From positions 62,001 through 126,000 of the forward strand of contig NZ_FQZG01000003.1 of NCBI RefSeq assembly GCF_900141915.1: a stretch of 64,000 nucleotides of DNA, read 5' to 3'. Shown here piece by piece: positions 551 through 26,481 of this stretch (positions within the stretch are counted from its first letter, which is position 1; each line of letters starts with the position of its first letter). Position numbers and translations under genes: made by a program. This DNA comes from Tessaracoccus bendigoensis DSM 12906 (GTDB taxonomy: Bacteria > Actinomycetota > Actinomycetes > Propionibacteriales > Propionibacteriaceae). The notes beneath the pieces were generated by a model. That model made no database searches. It had not been told where the DNA came from and was given only the letters and a program-made list of their open reading frames with translations.

Positions 551-2072
551 TCACCGGCCAGCCTTTGGTACCTTCGGCCCTCGTGGTGACTGAACGAGGT
601 TTAGAGTCGTGCCGTTGGCGAGGATGTGGATGGTCTTTCGGGCACGGGTGAGCGCGACGTAAAGGTCATTCACCTCCGAGTGATTTGCAGCGTCGGCGAT
701 GATGACATGGTCGTACTCAAGGCCCTTAACCAAAAGGGTTCGGGAAATCACCAGGCGGCGTTCACGGCGGCCAGCATGCCGTAGTGAGTCGCGTGCCTTC
801 GCCAGTTCGGCATGGAGGACGCTCTTGTCGTCACCCTTTGCGCCTGCTCCGCGTATGGCGGTTTTGACGTCGAGCCAGGCCTCGTGCGAGTGCAGCTTGA
901 TGCCTACTGCACTCGGAATTACGTCCATCGCAGTCGCTAACTGCCCCAAGGTCGGGTTGGTCACCACTTGGTCGAGAGCTTCGATGACGACCCTCACGGG
1001 CTCCCGCCTCGTTGAGGTCTTTAGCAAATAGCCGCCAGGCGCTCCGCGTTCATAACACTTGCCGAGTGGGGAGGGATCGAGAATGCCGCTCTTCGCGTGG
1101 CACTTCTTGGTGAACTCAAACAGCCACGAAGCGTAGCCTTCGGGTTCGACGTCGACAAGCTCCGTCAGCGCAGCGCTCATGTAACTGCCAGCAATTTCCT
1201 CCATGACGGTGTAGCGACCGTCCAATTTCGACGCGATGGCCCGTCCGCCGCTTAGGTGCCGAGCGCTGATGATCAGGACGGTCTCGCCTACGGGATGCTT
1301 GAGTGCAGACATCGCGGCGTTTGTGACGCCTTGGTAGTTGCCCGTGATGTCAGTGAACGTGACGCCGGCCGGGTAGGAGGGGTCGGCAAGGGTCAGTACC
1401 GCCCCTTCGGTCAGGTGCTTGCGAACTCCGAGCAACCACGCACCGAGTGCCTCGTTGTGTCCGGCCCAGCGATGTGGCTTCGGGGTTATGCCAAGAAAGG
1501 GGGGGGAAATCTTCTAGCACCTGGCCCCAGTCCGGCAGCGGCTCAGAGAACCCGAAAATCGCCTGAAGAGGGTCACCGAGGATCCCAACCCTACCGACCG
1601 CGTCTTTTAGCTTGAGGACAAGCGCGTGGTGCTCGGTGTTGCAGTCTTGGTACTCATCAACGAGGACGTGGGAGTAGGAGGCAGCTATAACCGCGTGGAG
1701 GTGGCTATTCGATAGCACCCGAGCCGCGGCTCTCACGTATGCCTGCGAGTCGTCGGGGACCATCAGGCGCGGAACGATGAGCTCACCAAGGACCGGGTAC
1801 GCGCGAGCCAGCCTAAATGCCATGCTCGTGATGGTGGTCACATGGACGCCCGAACTGGCGCCGAACCGTTTCAGTCGGGCCCTGACGGCGTGTACCCCGG
1901 CGTTGGTGTGCGTTATGACCAAGACCTTGCCACCGACATCGGTGACGTGCTTTGCAGCGGCCGCCAGCAGGTGGGTCTTGCCTGCGCCGGCAGGCATCTC
2001 GATCGAGGCGGGCAGCGCGTCGATGAAGGCGGCAGCGTCCGATCTCAGATCGTCGGGGAGTTCTTCAGGCAC
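551..2072 (-). pseudogene. gajB: GajB-like UvrD/Rep superfamily 1 helicase of a Gabija-like system, frameshifted
   Basis: The gene encodes a UvrD/Rep-type DNA helicase, the GajB partner of Gabija defence, in two frames. The first frame (GTG at 2070-2072) has Walker A MPAGAGKTHLL (about residues 26-36), Walker B VLVDEYQDC and motif III GDPLQAIFGF. The second frame carries the C-terminal helicase motifs LVKGLEYDHVII and YVALTRARK and ends at 551. The frames meet at a run of eight G at 1499-1506 (plus strand). With seven, the protein would read through DFPPFLGITPKPHRWAGHN into NEALGAWLLGVRKHL and be about 506 residues, close to the usual GajB length. The start overlaps the upstream nuclease stop by 8 bases, so the two genes are translationally coupled. 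The extra base could be a sequencing error, a phase-variable tract or true inactivation. Confidence 0.78.
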
Positions 2073-3894
2073 CAGGCAGCTCCGCGCCCTCTGTCCGCGC
2101 GCCCCCAGTTGGCCCGGATTGAACTCCGGGCGCGTTTGTTGGGGTCTTCTCCGAGCGGGCGTAGATGGCTGCCTTCAACTCGTCGAGCTTGGCCCTGACG
2201 TCACCCGTCTGCAGCCCCGGAGTGTCGAGCATGAACCGCGCCAGTCGACGACCCTTGTCGACGCGCTTGAACCAGGACTTGGACTTGGCGGCACGGCCCA
2301 CGATCTCCCTGGCTCGCTTGAGGTCGACTCCTGCGTGGGTCCAAGTGGCGACATTCAGGAGTTCAGCGCCGGTCTTTGCGCCGGGGGCACCGAGGGACTC
2401 GAGTTTCCCTGCGTAAGACTGGGCGGCGCCGTCCAGGTCGTCAGCGACGTCGAGCGCGGCCTGGATGAACTGAGTGAGCCCCGCTTCGTCGAGTTGGGCG
2501 CACACCGCTGTCTCGATGCTGTGCTCGCCTTCCCACTGAACGACCGCTCCACCCAAGGTCTTGATGTCGGGCACCATTTGGTTGGTCGCAGCGTCGTCAC
2601 TATCGATGAACAGCACGACTTGGTAGCCGGCGTGGAGGAACTGCTCTGCCCACGCTAACGACCCGGTTCCGCCGTTGCCTTCGATTGCGACCACACCCAG
2701 CGCGGCTGATGGCGCTGGCTCCGGATGGCCCCCAAGGTTCCACTCGTCAAGGAGTTCCAGAACCACTCCATATTCAGTCTTGCCCTCGTTGATGATGATC
2801 CGGCGCGCGAGGAAGGCTTCCGGGCTCGTCTTCAGCAGCCTGCGGAGGTCGGCAGGGGCACTCAGCGGGCGCAGGTCGGTCACCCCGGTCGTTGAGCGAA
2901 CCATGATGAGTTCTTCGGGCTCAAGGTGTTGCAGCGCGGTTGGGGAGTGGGTGGTGACGAAGACTTGGGAGAACGCGTCGCTGTTCCTGAGGTGGCCCAG
3001 CAGGTGGACAAGCCGATGCGGTTCGAGCCCGTGCTCCACTTCGTCCACCAGCAACGTCGTGCTCCCTTGGTTCGCGAGCTGTTGAGTTGCGGCGCCAGTC
3101 AAGCGCCTTGTACCCAGCCCGAAACTCGTCAACGGCACATCGCCCTCGAACAGGGCGAGGTTCCCCTGTGTGTTGGTCAATGAGAGGTCGAGCCCAGGCT
3201 TGAGGTCGGCGAACTCGGTCGTGCCGATTGCCTGTACTTGAATCCTTACCTCTTCTGCCAACGCCTTCAAGGAGTCTGTGACCGCATCGGCGGCCGCGTC
3301 CCGCGCCGCTCGCCCGGCCAGCGTCAGGGTGGAACGGGTGTCGTCACGGCTAGCGGTGAGCTTCCCAAGCGCGGAGGTCCGCGACCATCGCAGGTGCGCG
3401 TCGATGCGATCGTCGATCCGATACGCCGTCATCCTCGATCGATGCCTGGCGCGGACCGGCTGTGGCTCCTCGTCATCGAGGCCTTCAAGCGGGGGGCGAT
3501 AGGATTGCCACACCGGATCCAGGTCGGCTTCTACCAAAAACTCTATGATGACGCAGCACTGTGACTCCTCGCCGGGGTCGTGCGTCCATTCGCCCTCGTC
3601 GTCAATGCCCGCCAAGAACCCGCCGAAGGCGTCCATCGCAATGAGTTCATCTGGCAGTTGATCGACCGCGACCCGAATCCGGATTGGGCGCGTGACGTCG
3701 GCTTGGAAGAAGTCTGTGTCCTGGACGCTTTGGCCGGCACGGTCGTGAAGTGCGCGCTCAAGCGCTGTCAGGATGGTCGTCTTGGTTGAGTCGCCGGGCC
3801 CGATGAGTGCGAAGAATCTCTGACCCGGGGGAAGCCGCCAGGACGCAGCCTTGATGCCGCGGAAGCTCTCGATATCGACTCGCCGGATCCGCAT
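2065..3894 (-). CDS. gajA: GajA-like OLD-family ATPase/TOPRIM nuclease of a Gabija-like system
   Basis: Predicted 609-residue OLD-family endonuclease: an ABC-type ATPase fused to a TOPRIM nuclease domain, as in GajA, which nicks DNA when phage replication depletes nucleotides (family knowledge). Visible motifs are an atypical Walker A, IGPGDSTKTT (about 31-40), a signature-like SFGLGTRR (257-264), Walker B LLVDEVEHG (281-289), switch histidine in VFVTTHSP (311-318), then TOPRIM residues E370 in INEGKTE and DSDD (431-434). ATG at 3892-3894 is chosen over the one at 3957 because CGAGGA precedes it at good spacing and the protein then opens with MRIRRVDIESFRGI, the usual family start. The helicase gene follows with an 8-base overlap. 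The partner and order argue for Gabija rather than a lone OLD protein. Confidence 0.8.
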   Translation of the reverse strand: MRIRRVDIESFRGIKAASWRLPPGQRFFALIGPGDSTKTTILTALERALHDRAGQSVQDTDFFQADVTRPIRIRVAVDQLPDELIAMDAFGGFLAGIDDEGEWTHDPGEESQCCVIIEFLVEADLDPVWQSYRPPLEGLDDEEPQPVRARHRSRMTAYRIDDRIDAHLRWSRTSALGKLTASRDDTRSTLTLAGRAARDAAADAVTDSLKALAEEVRIQVQAIGTTEFADLKPGLDLSLTNTQGNLALFEGDVPLTSFGLGTRRLTGAATQQLANQGSTTLLVDEVEHGLEPHRLVHLLGHLRNSDAFSQVFVTTHSPTALQHLEPEELIMVRSTTGVTDLRPLSAPADLRRLLKTSPEAFLARRIIINEGKTEYGVVLELLDEWNLGGHPEPAPSAALGVVAIEGNGGTGSLAWAEQFLHAGYQVVLFIDSDDAATNQMVPDIKTLGGAVVQWEGEHSIETAVCAQLDEAGLTQFIQAALDVADDLDGAAQSYAGKLESLGAPGAKTGAELLNVATWTHAGVDLKRAREIVGRAAKSKSWFKRVDKGRRLARFMLDTPGLQTGDVRAKLDELKAAIYARSEKTPTNAPGVQSGPTGGARTEGAELPGA

Positions 3895-3999
3895 CCGTCC
3901 TCGTTTCGCTAGTAGACCTCGACCATAGTCCGCACGGGCGCCAACTTGCGGGACCATGAATGCTGACAGAGCGGTAGCGGCTTCGGCATCGGCATCGTG

Positions 4000-4387: not shown

Positions 4388-5749
4388 TCACGGCTTGCGC
4401 GTGCTGGCCTCGATCATCGACGAGACGTTGCCCGCCACCGCGGCGAGGTAGTCCATCTCGGCGCGCTGGTAGCGCAGCGCCATCTTCGGCGAGGTGTGGC
4501 CGGCGATCGCTTGGACGGCCCGGAGATTGCCCCCGGACAGCCGGTAGGCCCAGGTGAGGCCCGTCACCCGGGTTCCGTGGAAGACGTAGCCCCCTTGGCC
4601 GGTCAGCAGTTCCCGGATGCGCTGCGACTCCTCGCTCTCCTGTTCTCCTGACTGCTCAAAGCGACGAATTGCGTCCTCCTCGAGGCTATTGGCGACGGTC
4701 TTGCATGCATTCTTGAACGCCCTTAGCCAGTCCGCGGACTTCACTGGCCCGCCGTCCCTGGTCCGCCAGAAGAGCAACCCCGTCCGACCCAGCTGTGTGT
4801 GCTCGCGAAGATGCGACCTCACATCACCAACGAGAGCAGCGGGGATCGGAAGTGTGCGGAAGGCGATGCCCTTGCGGGCGGTCTTGAGCGGTCCGATCTC
4901 GACCTTGCCCTCCGCCTCCTTCACCGACTGATGGACCTTCACAGTCGGGACCTCACCGTTGAGACTGAAGTCGCGACGCTGCAGCGCTCGGACCTCGCCA
5001 GACCGCAGCCCGAGCACGCCCCCGAGGAGTACGCCCAGCCGCCAACGTTCGGGCATCTGCTCCGCGACGGCGTACAACACGTCGATCGGGAGGGGGTCCA
5101 GATCTCGTTCCCGCGAGGCTTGGGCTTGGGTAGCCGCCTTGACCTGGACGGGGTTCACCTCGATGAACTCGGCCTCGACGGCGGCGTTCATGATCGCTCG
5201 CAGCAGGTCGTACGCCTGCCGGCATGACGACTCGCGCGTGCTGACCGGGAGACCCTGCCACCACAGGCGCACGTCGGCGCGGGTCAACTCGGTGACGCGC
5301 ACACCGCCAATGCCGTGCTTCGCAACAGGCTTGCCTTTCACCATCCCTCGCCGCGTGATCGTCGCGGGCTCGGCAAGGATGTAGAACTTGAAGAGTTGGC
5401 GATAGCGGTCCCGCGACGTGGCAGCGAGCTCACCGCGCTCGAGGTACTGCGAGCCGTAGGCGGCAATGGTGGGCACCGCCGCCGCTGCCTGCCGGGCGGC
5501 CTCCTTGCGCTGGCGCTCCTCCTCGGCCTCGCGGAATCGCTCGATCGGCGGAGTCCAGTCGCCGCGATCGATCAGCCAGTGTTCGCGGTCGAGCCACCCC
5601 CAGGCATCGCCCTTCGCATCAAACGTCTGGAGCGCGGTGTAGCGGGTGCCTTGATCGCCGCCGCGAACGCTGCCGAGGACGTAGGACGCCTGGTAACGCC
5701 CGGAGGGAAGCTGACGAACCTTGCCCCACGCTCGGCGACCCTCCGCCAT
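4388..5749 (-). CDS. int: tyrosine site-specific integrase
   Basis: A 453-residue phage/ICE-type tyrosine recombinase expected to move the island in and out of the adjacent tRNA-Ser site. The C-terminal catalytic domain shows the first arginine in LGLRSGEVRAL, a lysine in GPLKTARKG, the box FHGTRVTGL (H-x-x-R), the second histidine in AGHTSPKMA and the nucleophile tyrosine in LRYQRAE. The N-terminal half contains a SAM-like core-binding segment (TIAAYGSQYL onward). The ATG at 5747-5749 is chosen over an upstream one because GGAGGGGG lies just before it. Its start faces the attachment site about 200 bases away, the usual arrangement for an element end. Confidence 0.9.
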   Translation of the reverse strand: MAEGRRAWGKVRQLPSGRYQASYVLGSVRGGDQGTRYTALQTFDAKGDAWGWLDREHWLIDRGDWTPPIERFREAEEERQRKEAARQAAAAVPTIAAYGSQYLERGELAATSRDRYRQLFKFYILAEPATITRRGMVKGKPVAKHGIGGVRVTELTRADVRLWWQGLPVSTRESSCRQAYDLLRAIMNAAVEAEFIEVNPVQVKAATQAQASRERDLDPLPIDVLYAVAEQMPERWRLGVLLGGVLGLRSGEVRALQRRDFSLNGEVPTVKVHQSVKEAEGKVEIGPLKTARKGIAFRTLPIPAALVGDVRSHLREHTQLGRTGLLFWRTRDGGPVKSADWLRAFKNACKTVANSLEEDAIRRFEQSGEQESEESQRIRELLTGQGGYVFHGTRVTGLTWAYRLSGGNLRAVQAIAGHTSPKMALRYQRAEMDYLAAVAGNVSSMIEASTRKP

Positions 5750-5802
5750 ATCCCAGTCCCCCTCCCCGCGTCCGCCACCGCCGCATCTCGTATCAGATTG
5801 AA

Positions 5803-5821
5803 GCACGAATCGTGCCCCGAG
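5803..5821. repeat. palindrome-containing direct repeat, left copy
   Basis: The sequence GCACGAATCGTGCCCCGAG contains the palindrome GCACGAWTCGTGC. A second copy differing only in the central base lies at 6032-6050. The two bracket the tRNA fragment and sit about 140 bases left and 60 bases right of it, so they could be arm-type sites for integrase or excisionase. Confidence 0.55.
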
Positions 5822-5942
5822 TGTGCCCCGAGATCCGCTTGCCATGCCTACGCGTGTCCACGCAAGTGACGGGCGACGCTATCTACTAGCGTAGTCAGAC
5901 GCCACATCGACCTGTTGACAAGGACTTCGATGTTGCGAGTTT

Positions 5943-5970
5943 GCGAGTTCGAATCTCGTATCCTCCGCCA
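5943..5970 (+). other. attachment site (att): 3' end of tRNA-Ser
   Basis: These 28 bases reproduce the end of a tRNA: T-arm GCGAG-TTCGAAT-CTCGT, acceptor strand ATCCTCC, discriminator G and encoded CCA. A G discriminator with this acceptor strand suits a tRNA-Ser. No 5' half or anticodon arm exists upstream, so it is not a functional gene but the duplicated 3' end left by integration. The intact tRNA should lie beyond the left edge of the window if the element extends left through the Gabija-like genes. Confidence 0.7.
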
Positions 5971-6050: not shown

Positions 6051-6351
6051 TTTTCGTGGCATGTTCTCGCCCGAGCAACCCGGGTGTCCGCGGAGACGGC
6101 CGCCCTGAATCCGGGTGACGTTGAGTGGCGCCGGTCCGTCGACACGGCATGCGCGCCGCGCCAGGTCGCGGCGCCGGTGAAGTCGATCAGTGGGCTTCCT
6201 ATCGCGTGCGCTGCTTGCGCGCTGACGGACCCATCAGTGAGTGAGGTCACAAGGCAGGTCCGGATCATTGATACCCGGGACATCAGTGAACGCAGGCTGT
6301 CGTGCTCCTATGCCAGAATGTCAAGCAGCCAAGGGAGGGAGGTGTAGGCAC

Positions 6352-6981
6352 ATGGTCCTCTACGCCGCCACCGACGCTTGGCCGAACCATCCGAAGCCAT
6401 GGTTCCGCGATGTGTACAAGATCGCTCGCGGCCATGGCTGGACGCTGGAGACCCACACGAGCCATACCGGCAGCGCGACAGTCCGATGCCCCAGCGGCGA
6501 TTGCTCCTTCAAGGTCTTCGCAACGGGCCGGGGCGCCGAGAGCGTAGCCAAGCAGCACAAGCTCATGATCGAGCGCTGCCCGCACGGGCCTGGGACCATC
6601 GACGCACTCACCCGCGCGACTGAGCTACTCGACAGGTCGGAGCGTCTTCTGAATGCGCTCGACTCCCTGCGCGAACGTGACAACCTCAACAACCGGGTGC
6701 AAGCCCTTCTGGTCGACGACGCAGACCGTCACGAGGACGAGATCCTTGACCTCTGGCTCGCCGCAGATGGGCTCGCCGCCGAGGCCGGGGAGCTACTTGC
6801 CGGGCTGGACACCTCAATCCCAGAGGAGATCGTCGAGACCACAGACAGGAACCTCGGCGCGGCGCGCCGAATCCTGCGCCCACTGCCGAAGACTGATGAG
6901 GTCACCAGGCAGAGGACCCGTGCCAGCAGCCTGCGAGTGCGCTGCGACGCACACCGCAAATTCATATCTCACTCTTGGTAA
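6352..6981 (+). CDS. HicA-like N-terminal domain protein, candidate toxin of a SecB-linked module
   Basis: A 209-residue protein of uncertain family. Residues 15-75 have the layout of a small HicA-type double-stranded-RNA-binding fold: a helix (WFRDVYKIARGHGW), a serine-histidine stretch (ETHTSHTGSATV) and strands, with cysteines in RCPSGDC and ERCPHG that could bind metal. The rest is helical and acidic (DDADRHEDEILDLW). ATG at 6352 follows GGAGGGAGGTG at ideal spacing. A helix-turn-helix gene begins 106 bases downstream and a SecB-like gene follows that, so I infer a toxin role. The HicA resemblance is by eye. A restriction or regulatory protein remains possible. Confidence 0.5.
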   Translation: MVLYAATDAWPNHPKPWFRDVYKIARGHGWTLETHTSHTGSATVRCPSGDCSFKVFATGRGAESVAKQHKLMIERCPHGPGTIDALTRATELLDRSERLLNALDSLRERDNLNNRVQALLVDDADRHEDEILDLWLAADGLAAEAGELLAGLDTSIPEEIVETTDRNLGAARRILRPLPKTDEVTRQRTRASSLRVRCDAHRKFISHSW

Positions 6982-7011
6982 ACGATTTCCTTGGACGACA
7001 AAAAACGGTAA

Positions 7012-7027
7012 GTTGGCAGTTGTCAAC
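7012..7027. promoter_or_regulatory. imperfect palindrome, possible operator
   Basis: GTTGGCAGTTGTCAAC is nearly self-complementary and lies in the 106-base gap before the helix-turn-helix gene, whose product could bind it. No convincing -10/-35 pair is seen beside it. This is a weak call. Confidence 0.25.
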
Positions 7028-7087
7028 CCAAGCGCCGGGTATCGAGGCTATGCCTCCCACTGCCGCGCTGGCGAAAGGAGAACCGAG

Positions 7088-7720
7088 ATGACAACGGTCG
7101 TGCGCGTTCAAGTCCCAGACCTGAACCTCAACGACGACACCCTCGACGACCGCCTCGCTGAGTTCGACAACGCCACCTTCTCGGAGGTCGATGGCCTAAC
7201 CTTGATCACCGTCTACGTCGAAGACGGGTGGTCGGTCGTAGACACGGTGTTGGAAGCCACACGCAAGCTCGCCACCAAGATCCCGGCCGCGATCGCGAAG
7301 CGTGTTCATCCAGATCTCGTCACCACGTCTGACATCGCCCAGCGAGTCGGCGTCAGCCGCGAGGCCGTCCGTAAGTGGGTCAAGGACTCACGCAAGCCGT
7401 TCCCGGCCCAGTTCGACAACATCACTGCTGGCCACCAGCGCGTGTGGCGCTGGGCCGAGGTCGCCGAGTGGCTGCTGAAGGCGAAGTCGATCGACATGGA
7501 CGAGGACCTGCCGAGCCTGGCCGACATTGCACACATCGATGCCTGCTTGAACAAGGTTCCGGACATGCTCAGCCAAGCGTGGGCCATGACCCAGACCGAA
7601 GAGATCGCGTTTTCCTTCGCGGCCACTGGGCGGCGCGCCAGCATTTCGCCCGTGATCGACATCGAGCTATACCGGCAGCAACGCGTCTGCCGTGGCGAGG
7701 AGGTGTCGAGTGCCGTCTGA
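7088..7720 (+). CDS. helix-turn-helix protein, candidate antitoxin/regulator of the SecB-linked module
   Basis: A 210-residue protein. The N-terminal 70 residues form an alpha/beta segment (ATFSEVDGLTLITVYVEDGW then a helix, VVDTVLEATRKLA) that could be a HicB-like or other partner-binding domain. Residues 75-125 contain a clear MerR/AlpA-like helix-turn-helix (TTSDIAQRVGVSREAVRKWV) with a following wing (HQRVWRWAEVAEWLL). The ATG at 7088 is preceded by AAGGAG. The SecB-like gene starts inside its last 11 bases, so the two are translationally coupled. In known toxin-antitoxin-chaperone loci the middle gene is the antitoxin that needs the chaperone, which matches this order. Alternatively it is a plain transcription factor. 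Confidence 0.6.
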   Translation: MTTVVRVQVPDLNLNDDTLDDRLAEFDNATFSEVDGLTLITVYVEDGWSVVDTVLEATRKLATKIPAAIAKRVHPDLVTTSDIAQRVGVSREAVRKWVKDSRKPFPAQFDNITAGHQRVWRWAEVAEWLLKAKSIDMDEDLPSLADIAHIDACLNKVPDMLSQAWAMTQTEEIAFSFAATGRRASISPVIDIELYRQQRVCRGEEVSSAV

Positions 7721-8213
7721 CGTGCCCCTCCCGATCGAGTTGGACCTGTTGCCGCTGGTCGCGCGCACCGACATCCGTGACGTGCGGCTCGTCTCGATCG
7801 AAGCACAGGCGCCAGACGTGCAGGCAGAGGATGCTGCGGTCCATTTCACAATGGACGAGATGGCGTACCGCGTGGAGGCAGGAACCTTGTTTGTGCGTGT
7901 AGCTGCCAATGTGCGGTATCTGGCAGAGGGTCCGGGCGCAGGCCAGCCCTCGGCCCCTGAGAGCGAACCGCCCCGGCTCGAGATTGGGCGGATCACCCTC
8001 GTGCTCCTCGCAGAGTTGGCCTTCGAAGGCGGCGAGATCAGTCAGACGCAGGCGGATGAGTTCATGGCACGCAACCTGCTTTTCATGTTGTTCCCGTACA
8101 TTCGGACTACCGTCCAGCAAGTCTCGGCGGACCTGCGGCTACCACTGACGGTGCTGCCCTATCTCCGGCGCGAGACAGGGATCACATCGGAAGATGCTGA
8201 CCCACCAGACTGA
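7710..8213 (+). CDS. SecB-like chaperone, putative third gene of a toxin-antitoxin-chaperone module
   Basis: A 167-residue protein with SecB-type features: a first strand VRLVSIEAQAPD, a long beta segment (AGTLFVRVAANVRYL), a segment around GRITLVLLAEL and the diagnostic C-terminal helix region LLFMLFPYIRTTVQQVSADL followed by RLPLTVLPYLRRE, which parallels the 'LFPYARE...FP-L-L-P' end of SecB. High-GC Gram-positives generally lack export SecB, and SecB-like copies there often accompany toxin-antitoxin pairs (for example Rv1957 with HigBA). GTG at 7710 has AGGAGG six bases upstream and overlaps the preceding gene by 11 bases. The family call is by eye, so confidence is moderate. Confidence 0.6.
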   Translation: MPSDVPLPIELDLLPLVARTDIRDVRLVSIEAQAPDVQAEDAAVHFTMDEMAYRVEAGTLFVRVAANVRYLAEGPGAGQPSAPESEPPRLEIGRITLVLLAELAFEGGEISQTQADEFMARNLLFMLFPYIRTTVQQVSADLRLPLTVLPYLRRETGITSEDADPPD

Positions 8214-8230
8214 CTCCAACATCGCAATCG

Positions 8231-8835
8231 TCACTTTTCGTGACGGGTCACCCAACGGTCAACGGCTACGAGGGTGGTCACGTGGCCGCAATTGCCATGT
8301 GCCTCCGGAGTCCTGCGACGGGAAGAACCGGACCACGCGCCAGGTGAGACGGCCGTAGTGCCCGGCTCCCTCGCTGGCAGGAGCTGGACAGCCACGAGTT
8401 GCGGCGGCACGACGCGGTCCGCGCTGGACACGACACGGCAAGCAGCTTGAGTGCCTGGTCGATGGCAAGCTGGGTGGGCGTCGCGGCCTGCCCCTCGGTC
8501 ATTACGGTCTTCTTCACCGGTATCAGTTCCGGCGGCGGTGCCTGGATCGTCCGCCCCGGCCGACGGGCACGGAGCTGAGCCCTCCTGCGCTTGCGCAGGG
8601 CGGCCAACAACCCAGCAGCGAGGACCCCGCCCGCACCGGTGAGCCCGACCAGCACCCACGGGGCCAGAGCCTCCGCGTCCCCATCGGACGCCTCGCGCAC
8701 AGGCCTAGCGCCGGCACTCACTTCGTAAGCCACGGTCGCCGAGGTGGCTGATGAGGGCGCCGCCGACGCGCTGGACGGAGCGGCTGGAACAGGGCAGCCC
8801 GCACAAGGCTCGGCGTCTGCCCGGAAAACCGTCAC
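8231..8835 (-). pseudogene. remnant of a LysM/BTAD-type membrane protein
   Basis: The frame shows an Ala/Ser-rich linker, one membrane segment (PWVLVGLTGAGGVLAAGLLA), a basic stop-transfer run (ALRKRRRAQLRARRPGR) and then TQLAIDQALKLLA. This resembles the central part of large actinobacterial proteins with LysM and bacterial transcriptional activator domains often found on conjugative islands. Those are near 1000 residues. Here the front is missing, and about 30 residues after the membrane segment the likely frame shifts (continuing as RVVPPQLVAVQLLP in another frame) before ending at 8231. I read it as a broken fragment. Confidence 0.5.
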
Positions 8836-9234
8836 CCGTTGAGTCGGACGACGCGGACGGCGATCTCGACCAGGCTCCGAGCGCGGCGGGCGAGGGCCTG
8901 AGACTTCGCGGCGGACATGAGGCTGACGCCGTACTCGACGTCAGCTTTGTTGGACACCAGTTCGCGGAGTCCCTTCTCTGCACCGGCAGCATCCGGTCGC
9001 TGCCCCAGCGCCCGACGAAGCTCCTTCGCGGCGAGCGCATGTCCCCTTGCCCTTCACCGTCGAACCGGTGAGTTGAGTGACGATCGCGTCCTTGGCGCAG
9101 ATGCCCGCATGGATGGCATCACCCGCAGCAACGGGGTACCGCTCCGCATCCAAATTGGCCTCCGCCGAGGCCAGGCACTCCGCGGCCTTCCTCAGGAAGC
9201 TTCGTGCGTGATTGCGATGTTCGAGCGCTGCCAT
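8832..9234 (-). pseudogene. HEPN-domain toxin-like gene with a frameshift
   Basis: The first frame encodes a HEPN-like helical start (HARSFLRKAAECLASAEANL, then AAGDAIHAGICAKDAIVTQL). After TVKGK, near 9042, the frame must shift by one base to continue as HALAAKELRRALGQ and later LVSNKADVEYGVSLMSAAK, ending at TGA 8832-8834. The repaired protein would be about 133 residues, normal for HEPN partners of MNT nucleotidyltransferases. Its ATG overlaps the MNT stop by one base. HEPN proteins of such pairs are usually RNases held inactive by the MNT partner. The frameshift suggests decay. Confidence 0.6.
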
Positions 9235-9490
9235 CACCCCACACCAACCGTCACCTGAGGGAGCGACCCGAGCAGAAGCACCCCATCAGAGAGGATCTGG
9301 GTGACGACTCGCTCCTCGCCGCTGGCCACAAGACGCTCGAACTCCTCCGGTGTGAACACCAACACATCACAGTCAATGCCCAGCCGAGCACGGACCGCAT
9401 CTTCCAACTCCGTCCGACCCTGCCAATCCGAGGGCGCAAGACGGCCAGGTCGACATCGCTCTCGGCGGTTGCCTCCCTACTGCCGCCCAG
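9234..9490 (-). pseudogene. decayed MNT-type nucleotidyltransferase antitoxin gene
   Basis: The piece begins near GGSREATAESDVDLAVL, a damaged form of the nucleotidyltransferase motif GS-x-ARG...SDxDL: the residues between the GS and the EA are missing. After the DVDLAV strand the frame shifts and continues DWQGRTELEDAVRARLGIDC, then VFTPEEFERLVASGEERVV, ending with TGA over the HEPN start codon. At least one internal deletion and one frameshift are needed, so this is a pseudogene. Order and overlap match MNT/HEPN toxin-antitoxin pairs. Confidence 0.6.
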
Positions 9491-25024: not shown

Positions 25025-26481
25025 GGGTGGCTCCAGTGGGAGGGAACTTCGGTGAAAACGTAGCGCGGCGCACTGACAGTTCTGGAGTTACCCATCGATG
25101 AGTCCCACCGCCAGCGCTCGACGCCGGGAGCGGGCGTCGCGTTCTCCTCGGCCAGGATCAGCAGGCCGACTATGGATGCGAGACCCTGCGACGCTGGGTG
25201 TTCGCGCAGCACATCACCAACGGTCGCCCCAGGCGCCAGGGCCACCGTCTCGGCGACGTTTCGTTCGAGTTCCCGAAAGTCGATCTCGGTGAGGCTGACA
25301 AGCCGTCTCAGCTCCTCAAGATCGAGTTCCGGCACCTCCCGGGCCACGACTTCGTCGACCGTGCGCAGGTCGGCCGGGTTATGCAGCGACCATGAGCCGA
25401 CTGACGCGATCCGCGTCGACGTGAGGTCGAGGTCGCGGCCGAGCTGGGTCGACGGCTGGTGGGTCCTGAGGGCGGCCAACGCGGCTTGGTCCGCCCGCCC
25501 GAGAGCCTCGGCGAGGCGTTTGTGTTCGCGGTACTCCTGCGTCTGCACGAACCGTCTGAGGCTGCGTGAGAACTCCGTGAGGCTCAGCCGCACCTGGTGG
25601 CTCTCGCGTTGCAGCAGCGTCAGGTACCTGCGCAGGAAGACGGTGTCGGGGCCGGGCATCGACCCGGTGAAGCCGCGGTCGAGGATCGCGTCGACAGCCG
25701 CGTCGAACCGGTCGGTGAGCATGCGGTCCAGCAGGAGGTCGTGGAAGGCGTTGAAGGTGCGCCCGGCCTCGCTGGTCTCGATCAGGTCGACGCCGGAGAA
25801 GACGTCGTCGAGCACCCCTCCGCGCGACCCGTCGTTGTTGATGATCTGTTCGCGGAGCCGAGCGTTGAGTGTTTCCAGGTCGTCGGCGACCTTGGCGAAA
25901 TCGCCAGGCACCTCGCCTGCCAGTCGCAGGATCTCAGCCAGCCGTTCCCTGGCGACGACGTCGTCGAGCGGCTCGTAGTCTCCTGACTCGATGCGCGCGA
26001 TCTCCTGATCGATGCGGTCGCGCTCCTCCCGCAGGCCCTCGACCCGGGTGGCCGCATCAGGGTCGGATTCCCTCGCGAGGGCGTCGAGCAGGCCCGTGAC
26101 ATTGCTCAACCGCGACGACGTGACCGACGACCTAGCCTGTTCCACGTCCGTGACGAACCGAACCACGTCCGCTGCTGAACGGGACAGTTCGACGGTCTCC
26201 TCACGGGCCGCTGCCCCGGCGCGTCGAATGAGGTAGCCGTTGGCGATCCAATCGGCCACATATTCCTGGGCGTTTCGTGGCAGGGGGAATCCGGAGTCGC
26301 GCAGCTCGTCGAGGTCTTCGGCGACCTGTTCGATGAACTCGGCGTAACCGAGCACCCGCGTCGCCTCGAAGCGATGCGACAACACCGCGACGACGACAGG
26401 CAGCAGGTCGGCCCGCAGCAGCCGCATCGGGCCGTCGACGACCCTGCGGGCAGCCACCGCCCGCGCCGCTACACCCGCCAT
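25021..26481 (-). CDS. jetA: Wadjet kleisin-like subunit JetA (DUF3375)
   Basis: A 486-residue DUF3375 protein, the MukF-like kleisin of Wadjet. The N-terminal winged-helix region includes PMRLLRADLLPVVVAVLSHR and YAEFIEQVAEDLDEL, followed by a coiled coil (SDPDAATRVEGLREERDRID) and the conserved middle GSRGGVLDDVFSGVDLIETS with GRTFNAFHDLL. It heads the minus-strand operon jetABCD. The first 18 residues (Ala/Arg/Val rich) match the family poorly, so a start a little inside is possible. The 272 bases upstream (26482-26753) hold the divergent promoters with the PAC2 gene; I see no specific operator. Confidence 0.9.
   Translation of the reverse strand: MAGVAARAVAARRVVDGPMRLLRADLLPVVVAVLSHRFEATRVLGYAEFIEQVAEDLDELRDSGFPLPRNAQEYVADWIANGYLIRRAGAAAREETVELSRSAADVVRFVTDVEQARSSVTSSRLSNVTGLLDALARESDPDAATRVEGLREERDRIDQEIARIESGDYEPLDDVVARERLAEILRLAGEVPGDFAKVADDLETLNARLREQIINNDGSRGGVLDDVFSGVDLIETSEAGRTFNAFHDLLLDRMLTDRFDAAVDAILDRGFTGSMPGPDTVFLRRYLTLLQRESHQVRLSLTEFSRSLRRFVQTQEYREHKRLAEALGRADQAALAALRTHQPSTQLGRDLDLTSTRIASVGSWSLHNPADLRTVDEVVAREVPELDLEELRRLVSLTEIDFRELERNVAETVALAPGATVGDVLREHPASQGLASIVGLLILAEENATPAPGVERWRWDSSMGNSRTVSAPRYVFTEVPSHWSHP

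Follow-up and report, generated by a model that had tools for sequence, protein, structure and literature searches.

Do the three compact plus-strand genes at positions 6,352 to 8,213 of a 64,000-nucleotide stretch of DNA from Tessaracoccus bendigoensis DSM 12906 (here, the window) form a toxin-antitoxin-chaperone (TAC) module, and if so, how does it differ from those already described? Our answer is that the locus is probably a TAC module of a new class, in which a remotely HicA-like toxin (gene A) is partnered by an antitoxin (gene B) with a ferredoxin-like domain and a MerR-type helix-turn-helix (HTH) in place of HicB, followed by a SecB-like chaperone (gene C). Genes A (209 amino acids) and B (210) start with ATG and gene C (167) with GTG, and C overlaps the end of B by 11 bases (7710-7720). 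The original prediction, made from the letters of the sequence, had proposed a candidate new toxin-antitoxin-SecB module at this place. A check of open reading frames (ORFs) found the genes, their strand and the overlap as it had described them, and the module itself gains support from three findings: the same triplet, sought in other genomes, is present in 15 of 46 distinct loci that encode B; B carries an extension that goes with SecB; and a dyad is conserved between A and B. Because the order A-B-C, similar lengths and the shared A-B dyad all recur in other actinobacteria, the triplet is not a chance run of ORFs.

Gene C belongs to the SecB family, as had been proposed. When its family profile was compared with the PDB, the sole significant match was 5mtw_C, the SecB-like TAC chaperone Rv1957 (E-values 5.9e-9 and 3.6e-15). 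C also matches the PADLOC model PD-T4-9_C (E-value 3e-4) and, weakly, Pfam SecB (E-value 0.16). The Pfam model found no SecB in 21 related genomes including that of T. bendigoensis, where it misses the genome's own two SecB-like genes as well. Used as a single-protein query against 146 genomes (its own and those of relatives), C found the window locus alone, and a search of plasmids with C returned no match. The C profile found 12 places in 11 of 394 genomes sampled from the class. Two of these are A-B-C triplets, and the other ten all follow an HTH-type ORF, as judged by eye (three of these ORFs were also tested). Five of nine ORFs tested from those preceding these chaperone loci match Pfam Gp49, which we take to be related to the HigB/RelE toxins, three of them over the Pfam cut-off; the other four match nothing. 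SecB genes outside the alpha-, beta- and gamma-proteobacteria are described as tending to sit with toxin-antitoxin genes of various families (PMC4257090). The second SecB-like gene of T. bendigoensis (L116, contig C131, about 25756-26187) lies behind an Xre-type HTH gene and an unassigned 162-residue ORF; BrxD of a BREX system (E-value 9.8e-205) comes immediately after it.

Loci were drawn from class and phylum samples, plasmids and named genomes and were scored with hidden Markov models (HMMs) for A, B and C. Among 48 rows with B, L047 repeats the window locus and L079 has the same gene as L004; without these two duplicates, 46 distinct loci remain. A adjoins B in 38 of them, although L023, L041 and L046 show a partial match to A; SecB is present in 15, always together with A. 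The strongest 14 A matches in the 394 class genomes (E-value 1.2e-14 or better) all adjoin B; four of these come from loci that the query alignment included. The search of named genomes gave 16 loci, 12 with a full B, of which ten are full triplets, in a Micrococcales metagenome-assembled genome (MAG), Kribbia, a Propionibacteriaceae MAG, Pseudarthrobacter, Arthrobacter, Actinomyces, Micromonospora and Nocardioides; since that search was seeded with B proteins, two of them from triplets, triplets are enriched in the set and the share of loci with SecB is not an unbiased frequency. The HMMs, too, were built partly from loci later counted, and both circumstances must be set against the counts. 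The 394 class genomes were sampled without the B-protein seed, and among them the C profile matches the triplet in two genomes; triplets occur also on Pseudarthrobacter and Rhodococcus plasmids. The B protein is not confined to Actinomycetota: plasmids of an enterobacterium (L035, with A) and of a cyanobacterium (L037, lacking A) encode it as well. A first scan of genome contigs with B alone found no relative, and a search of viral contigs with B gave two loci in which the similarity is confined to the HTH part.

The C-terminal end of B differs between loci that have a chaperone and most of those that do not. B had been called far longer than a usual antitoxin, and its 210 residues bear this out. 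Tails were compared in 45 B loci, 14 with SecB and 31 without; L033 was left out (its B is split, with coverage just below 0.7), and the tail of L027 could not be measured. All 14 SecB-linked B proteins continue for 69 to 115 residues past the HTH module and contain at least one Trp there, while SecB-less tails measure 36 to 72 residues in 24 of 30. In the window protein, residues 171-191 and 194-209 of this extension have a predicted local distance difference test score (pLDDT) below 50. A C-terminal extension is what makes the antitoxin SecB-dependent in other TAC systems, as these are described in PMC5105189 and PMC9519451. On a tree of 42 B sequences (L014, L023 and L027 left out), the B protein of the window falls in a clade of 12 rows, 11 of them SecB loci (support 100/96). 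The SecB label requires a minimum of four changes on this tree, and since well-supported branches force three of them, SecB has been gained or lost more than once.

The dyad supplies a second character shared across triplets. The 16-bp sequence GTTGRCANNTGYCAAC is found in the gap between A and B in 15 triplets: exactly in 11, with one mismatch in one, two in one and three in two. When each gap was shuffled 300 times, no shuffle equalled the real gap in 12 of the 15 triplets, and one to three did so in the other three. In the 4.13-Mb genome GTTGGCANNTGYCAAC is found exactly only as the window copy; two other places match with one mismatch. Among 19 SecB-less loci scanned, 12 have a copy with no more than two mismatches, placed before B in eight and before A in four, and seven have none. 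The dyad also stands, exact, before B in a locus where A is absent (L078); this, together with the distribution of the dyad, makes B itself its likeliest ligand. Read by eye at several loci, the left half-site could act as a -35 box, followed about 16 to 19 bases later by a hexamer that resembles a -10 element. A scan of positions 6200-8400 for sigma-70 promoters and terminators found none.

Gene A had been described as HicA-like, with extra cysteines and a long helical tail. The cysteines (C46 and C76) are real, and so is the tail, which AlphaFold2 models as helices over residues 80-208, folded into a bundle that is predicted with confidence (pLDDT over 90 for the most part). The preceding domain has a predicted alpha-beta-beta-beta-alpha topology, in keeping with a HicA fold; the A model as a whole has a mean pLDDT of 91. 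The PADLOC model PDC-M06A is matched by whole A at an E-value of 0.0041, by the domain at 4e-4 and by the best of 11 family members at 1.4e-26. Nine residues are invariant in the 11 A sequences (W10, H13, A25, G29, W30, H38, C46, G59 and A66). The likeness to HicA holds as a possible remote kinship, and membership of the HicA family is not established. A profile comparison by hhalign of the A family with 13 HicA proteins of other genomes, from which two wrong ORFs had been removed beforehand, aligned 26 columns with a probability of 11.8% and a score of 20.75, above the maximum of 16.68 in 200 column shuffles and the 9.4 obtained with a reversed A alignment. In that register His38 pairs with the His of the G-S-H motif in HicA, and we take that residue to be the catalytic His of HicA. 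One family member, the A protein of L010, matches the PADLOC HicA-like model at 6.8e-6. No significant match to A was found by sequence search of the PDB, and structure searches with whole A (Foldseek, VIA-align) gave no HicA entry among the matches listed, which the helical tail filled. Pfam gave no RelE/HigB match to A. An ADP-ribosyltransferase identity for A was considered and rejected, as sequence searches of Pfam, NCBIfam and PADLOC gave no such match.

A second family, A-like but more distant and about 74 residues long, accounts for 17 weaker A matches in the 394 class genomes, 16 of them with loci (L147-L162), and aligns with A at an hhalign probability of 98.6 (E-value 1.2e-15). At ten of the 16 loci a small next ORF without an HTH was taken as the partner. 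Taken as a group, these partner ORFs show a weak likeness to the domain at the N-terminus of B (probability 5.8%, with a score of 19.2 and a shuffle maximum of 16.2) and may correspond to it.

B does not look like HicB. Its N-terminus is modelled as beta-alpha-beta-beta-alpha-beta and aligns with ferredoxin-like folds, and no HicB model is among the 21 Pfam families listed for it. A sequence search of the PDB with B gave no significant match, and Foldseek comparison with the PDB and viral models gave nothing at an E-value of 0.001 or better. B matches PADLOC PDC-M06B at 2.1e-18. By these E-values, A and B match, in the same order, the models PDC-M06A and PDC-M06B of the candidate defence system PDC-M06 in PADLOC-DB, and what is new is therefore the SecB-coupled form. 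Of the 38 loci that carry A, 23 lack SecB, and their A proteins end 0 to 15 residues past the domain; in the form found in the window, SecB, the B extension and the A tail are present in addition.

The module can be compared with established TAC systems. HigA is an Xre-type antitoxin. Rv1955-Rv1956-Rv1957 (HigBA1-SecB) of Mycobacterium tuberculosis has the same toxin-antitoxin-SecB order, and C falls in the Rv1957 family; its antitoxin is likewise described as having a C-terminal extension with important Trp residues. In contrast, A has no match to RelE/HigB in Pfam and the HTH of B is modelled as MerR-type. CmdTAC (PD-T4-9) of Escherichia coli also consists of three genes with a SecB-like third, the counterpart matched by C, but its toxin CmdT is reported to be an mRNA ADP-ribosyltransferase (PMC11618068), and A gave no match of that kind in Pfam, NCBIfam or PADLOC. 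The HicAB-type Mmet-TAC of Methylomonas methanica is described as combining a HicA-family toxin, an antitoxin extended at its C-terminus and a SecB-like chaperone (PMC5105189), whereas A is only a remote relative of HicA and the model of B pairs a ferredoxin-like domain with a winged HTH. The name PDC-M06 was not found in the literature searched, nor was any description of this pair with a chaperone, in a search by title and abstract opening with most subscription journals outside it. The TAC architecture is known; what looks new is the combination of this toxin-antitoxin pair with its dyad and chaperone-linked extensions.

A working scheme can be proposed for the module. The effector would be A, a small HicA-like domain, probably directed at RNA, with a coiled helical tail, and its toxicity would be neutralised by B. 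B would be both antitoxin and autorepressor. A would be held by the ferredoxin-like domain of B, and the dyad, lying over the -35 region of a promoter for B and C, would be recognised by the winged HTH; the disordered extension would be the region through which B is addicted to the chaperone. C would be dedicated to B, holding and folding it by way of that extension. CmdTAC is one TAC system with a published phage trigger, a capsid protein that titrates the chaperone, with degradation of the antitoxin to follow (PMC11618068). Phage sensing by the window module is only supposed; should a freshly synthesised phage protein, for example, titrate C in a comparable manner, breakdown of B, release of A and a halt in translation would be expected.

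Several observations weigh against a TAC module, and some of them also favour its main rival, in which B is a widely used regulator of defence genes. B, on this account, would be first of all a MerR/excisionase-type regulator adopted by several defence loci, A a small nucleic-acid-binding accessory and no toxin, and C a chaperone of labile B, the whole forming a cassette for the control of defence or of mobile elements. The original prediction had named the separate occurrence of A and B homologues as evidence that would count against it, and this is found in part: B lacks A in eight of the 46 loci (one of them, L045, with only 478 bases available upstream), although 38 keep A beside B. In the Gordonia MAG locus L078 (1020-3864), the A-less B with its exact dyad lies between DarG and a McrB-like AAA gene; it is ahead of the McrB-like gene and overlaps it, and in that locus a regulatory role for B is likelier than that of antitoxin. 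The same operator and repressor possibly control another defence system there. B may therefore be a regulator first, and its matches to phrog_2620, "excisionase and transcriptional regulator" (E-value 5.1e-10), and to mad1 (4.9e-7) agree with this. The toxin assignment of A is weakened in turn: Pfam HicA_toxin (PF07927) is listed for none of the 11 A-family members at a limit of E-value 10 (HMMER's filtering removes most low-scoring hits), the alignment of the A and HicA profiles is short and weak, and Tyr stands in place of His38 in 13 of the 14 sequences of the distant A-like family that could be read, as judged by eye. Nor are the shared characters uniform. The dyad has two or three mismatches in three of the 15 triplets; six SecB-less B proteins (L005-L007 and L009-L011) carry a different C-terminal region of 167 to 176 residues; and Trp occurs in 11 of the 31 SecB-less tails, so that neither an extension nor a Trp by itself signifies SecB. 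Against a regulator stand the adjacency to B of all 14 strongest A matches in the class genomes, the HTH-type ORFs ahead of related chaperones, with a Gp49-type gene before five of nine, and the extension of B that accompanies the chaperone as it does in TAC antitoxins. We judge a regulator adopted by defence loci to be an unlikely account of the triplet.

Might SecB serve A instead of B? C would then hold the helical tail of A and keep A inactive until C is titrated, leaving B as a repressor only. The distribution of the A tail invites this suggestion: 13 of the 14 loci linked to SecB have a tail, of 104 to 145 residues, and the 23 SecB-less loci with A have none. The Rhodococcus triplets, however, have SecB without an A tail, a point that tells also against the A tail as a fixed part of the proposed module, and L034 of that form, which groups with SecB-less loci at modest support (84/80), has the B extension as well. 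L004 and L078, the two SecB-less rows in a SecB-rich clade of 15, lack both the B extension and the A tail (L078 lacks A altogether). SecB thus tracks the B extension more closely than the A tail, which is what addiction of B to the chaperone predicts. Moreover, the A tail is modelled as folded, while the end of B is disordered, as would be expected of a chaperone client. That A is the client of C appears quite improbable.

A third alternative, that C is an export chaperone that stands beside an unrelated pair by chance, has in its favour the classical role of SecB proteins as given in PMC4257090, but we reject it as very improbable indeed, given that the triplet order recurs in 15 loci from several actinobacterial families, that the closest solved relative of C is the TAC chaperone Rv1957, and that Pfam SecB finds nothing in the 21 related genomes (bearing in mind the two genes that this model misses).

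Beyond a TAC module in which C serves B, a bolder scheme may be drawn: a chaperone-gated defence switch in which SecB would hold both the B extension and the A tail, C would sense phage proteins and arm a HicA-like, RNA-targeting effector that has its own oligomerisation or targeting bundle, and the B family would serve as a portable repressor-antitoxin that uses a single conserved 16-bp operator and controls other defence genes such as the McrB-like gene of L078 as well. As a whole, this scheme is tentative and rather unlikely. Should the simpler module be correct, TAC systems would gain new toxin and antitoxin families together with two-gene relatives that lack the chaperone, a ready test of what a chaperone adds: since the same pair exists with and without SecB, antitoxin extension and toxin tail, the question can be asked directly. 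It would also provide a first mechanism for the candidate defence pair PDC-M06. The features of the locus are collected in Table 1.

Table 1. Features of the proposed module and of its left flank, in window coordinates.
Feature	Position	Strand	Basis or remark
GajA of Gabija, neighbour outside the module	2065..3957	-	PADLOC GajA, E-value 5.4e-162
Tyrosine recombinase (integrase) beside attachment fragment	4388..5845	-	phrog_1 integrase, E-value 2.5e-34
306 bases about 75% identical to DNA downstream of the intact tRNA-Ser (contig C51)	5944..6249		DNA comparison
tRNA-Ser(GGA) 3' fragment, 26 bases, probable attachment-site copy	5945..5970	+	intact tRNA on contig C51
Gene A, proposed toxin, PDC-M06A family	6352..6981	+	domain residues ~10-78 (nt 6379-6585), helical tail residues 80-208
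His38 codon of A	6463..6465	+	invariant in A alignments; placed on His of HicA G-S-H motif by hhalign
16-bp dyad GTTGGCAGTTGTCAAC between A and B, proposed B-C operator	7012..7027	+	conserved in triplets
Gene B, proposed antitoxin and autoregulator	7088..7720	+	ferredoxin-like domain, winged HTH, C-terminal extension
B ferredoxin-like domain, residues 1-75	7088..7312	+	modelled
B MerR/excisionase-type winged HTH, residues 76-135	7313..7492	+	modelled
B C-terminal extension, residues ~156-210, with W165, proposed chaperone-addiction region	7553..7717	+	disorder, link with SecB
Gene C, TAC-type SecB-like chaperone	7710..8213	+	GTG start, profile match to Rv1957

The surroundings of the module are mobile DNA, with an integrase gene and the genes of a Gabija system close by. 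The tRNA fragment that probably marks an attachment site is placed between the integrase gene and gene A, and on contig C51 the DNA after the intact tRNA-Ser leads into ORFs that resemble those of mobile elements (excisionase-like and ArdC-like, by eye). Neighbours hand-picked from ORF lists at other loci, which serve as examples and not as a measure of enrichment, include a type I restriction subunit (L071), a PDC-S39 gene (L077), a phage-type integrase (L072) and a conjugative coupling protein (L070); several further loci, L068, L069 and L075 among them, lie beside apparent metabolic genes, by eye. A mobile cassette with some defence neighbours fits these surroundings.

Three observations concern the flanks of the module. 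The GajB gene of the neighbouring Gabija system (551-2072, minus strand) is split over two overlapping reading frames. To the right, about 430 bases (8363-8794) are 85% identical, in the same orientation, to positions 51597-52024 of contig C85; this C85 counterpart lies about 19 kb to the left, beside genes that resemble those of a Tad/Flp pilus (by eye), and the window copy looks truncated. Beyond it, a 98-residue ORF on the minus strand (8941-9237) has a marginal match to HEPN (E-value 0.14).

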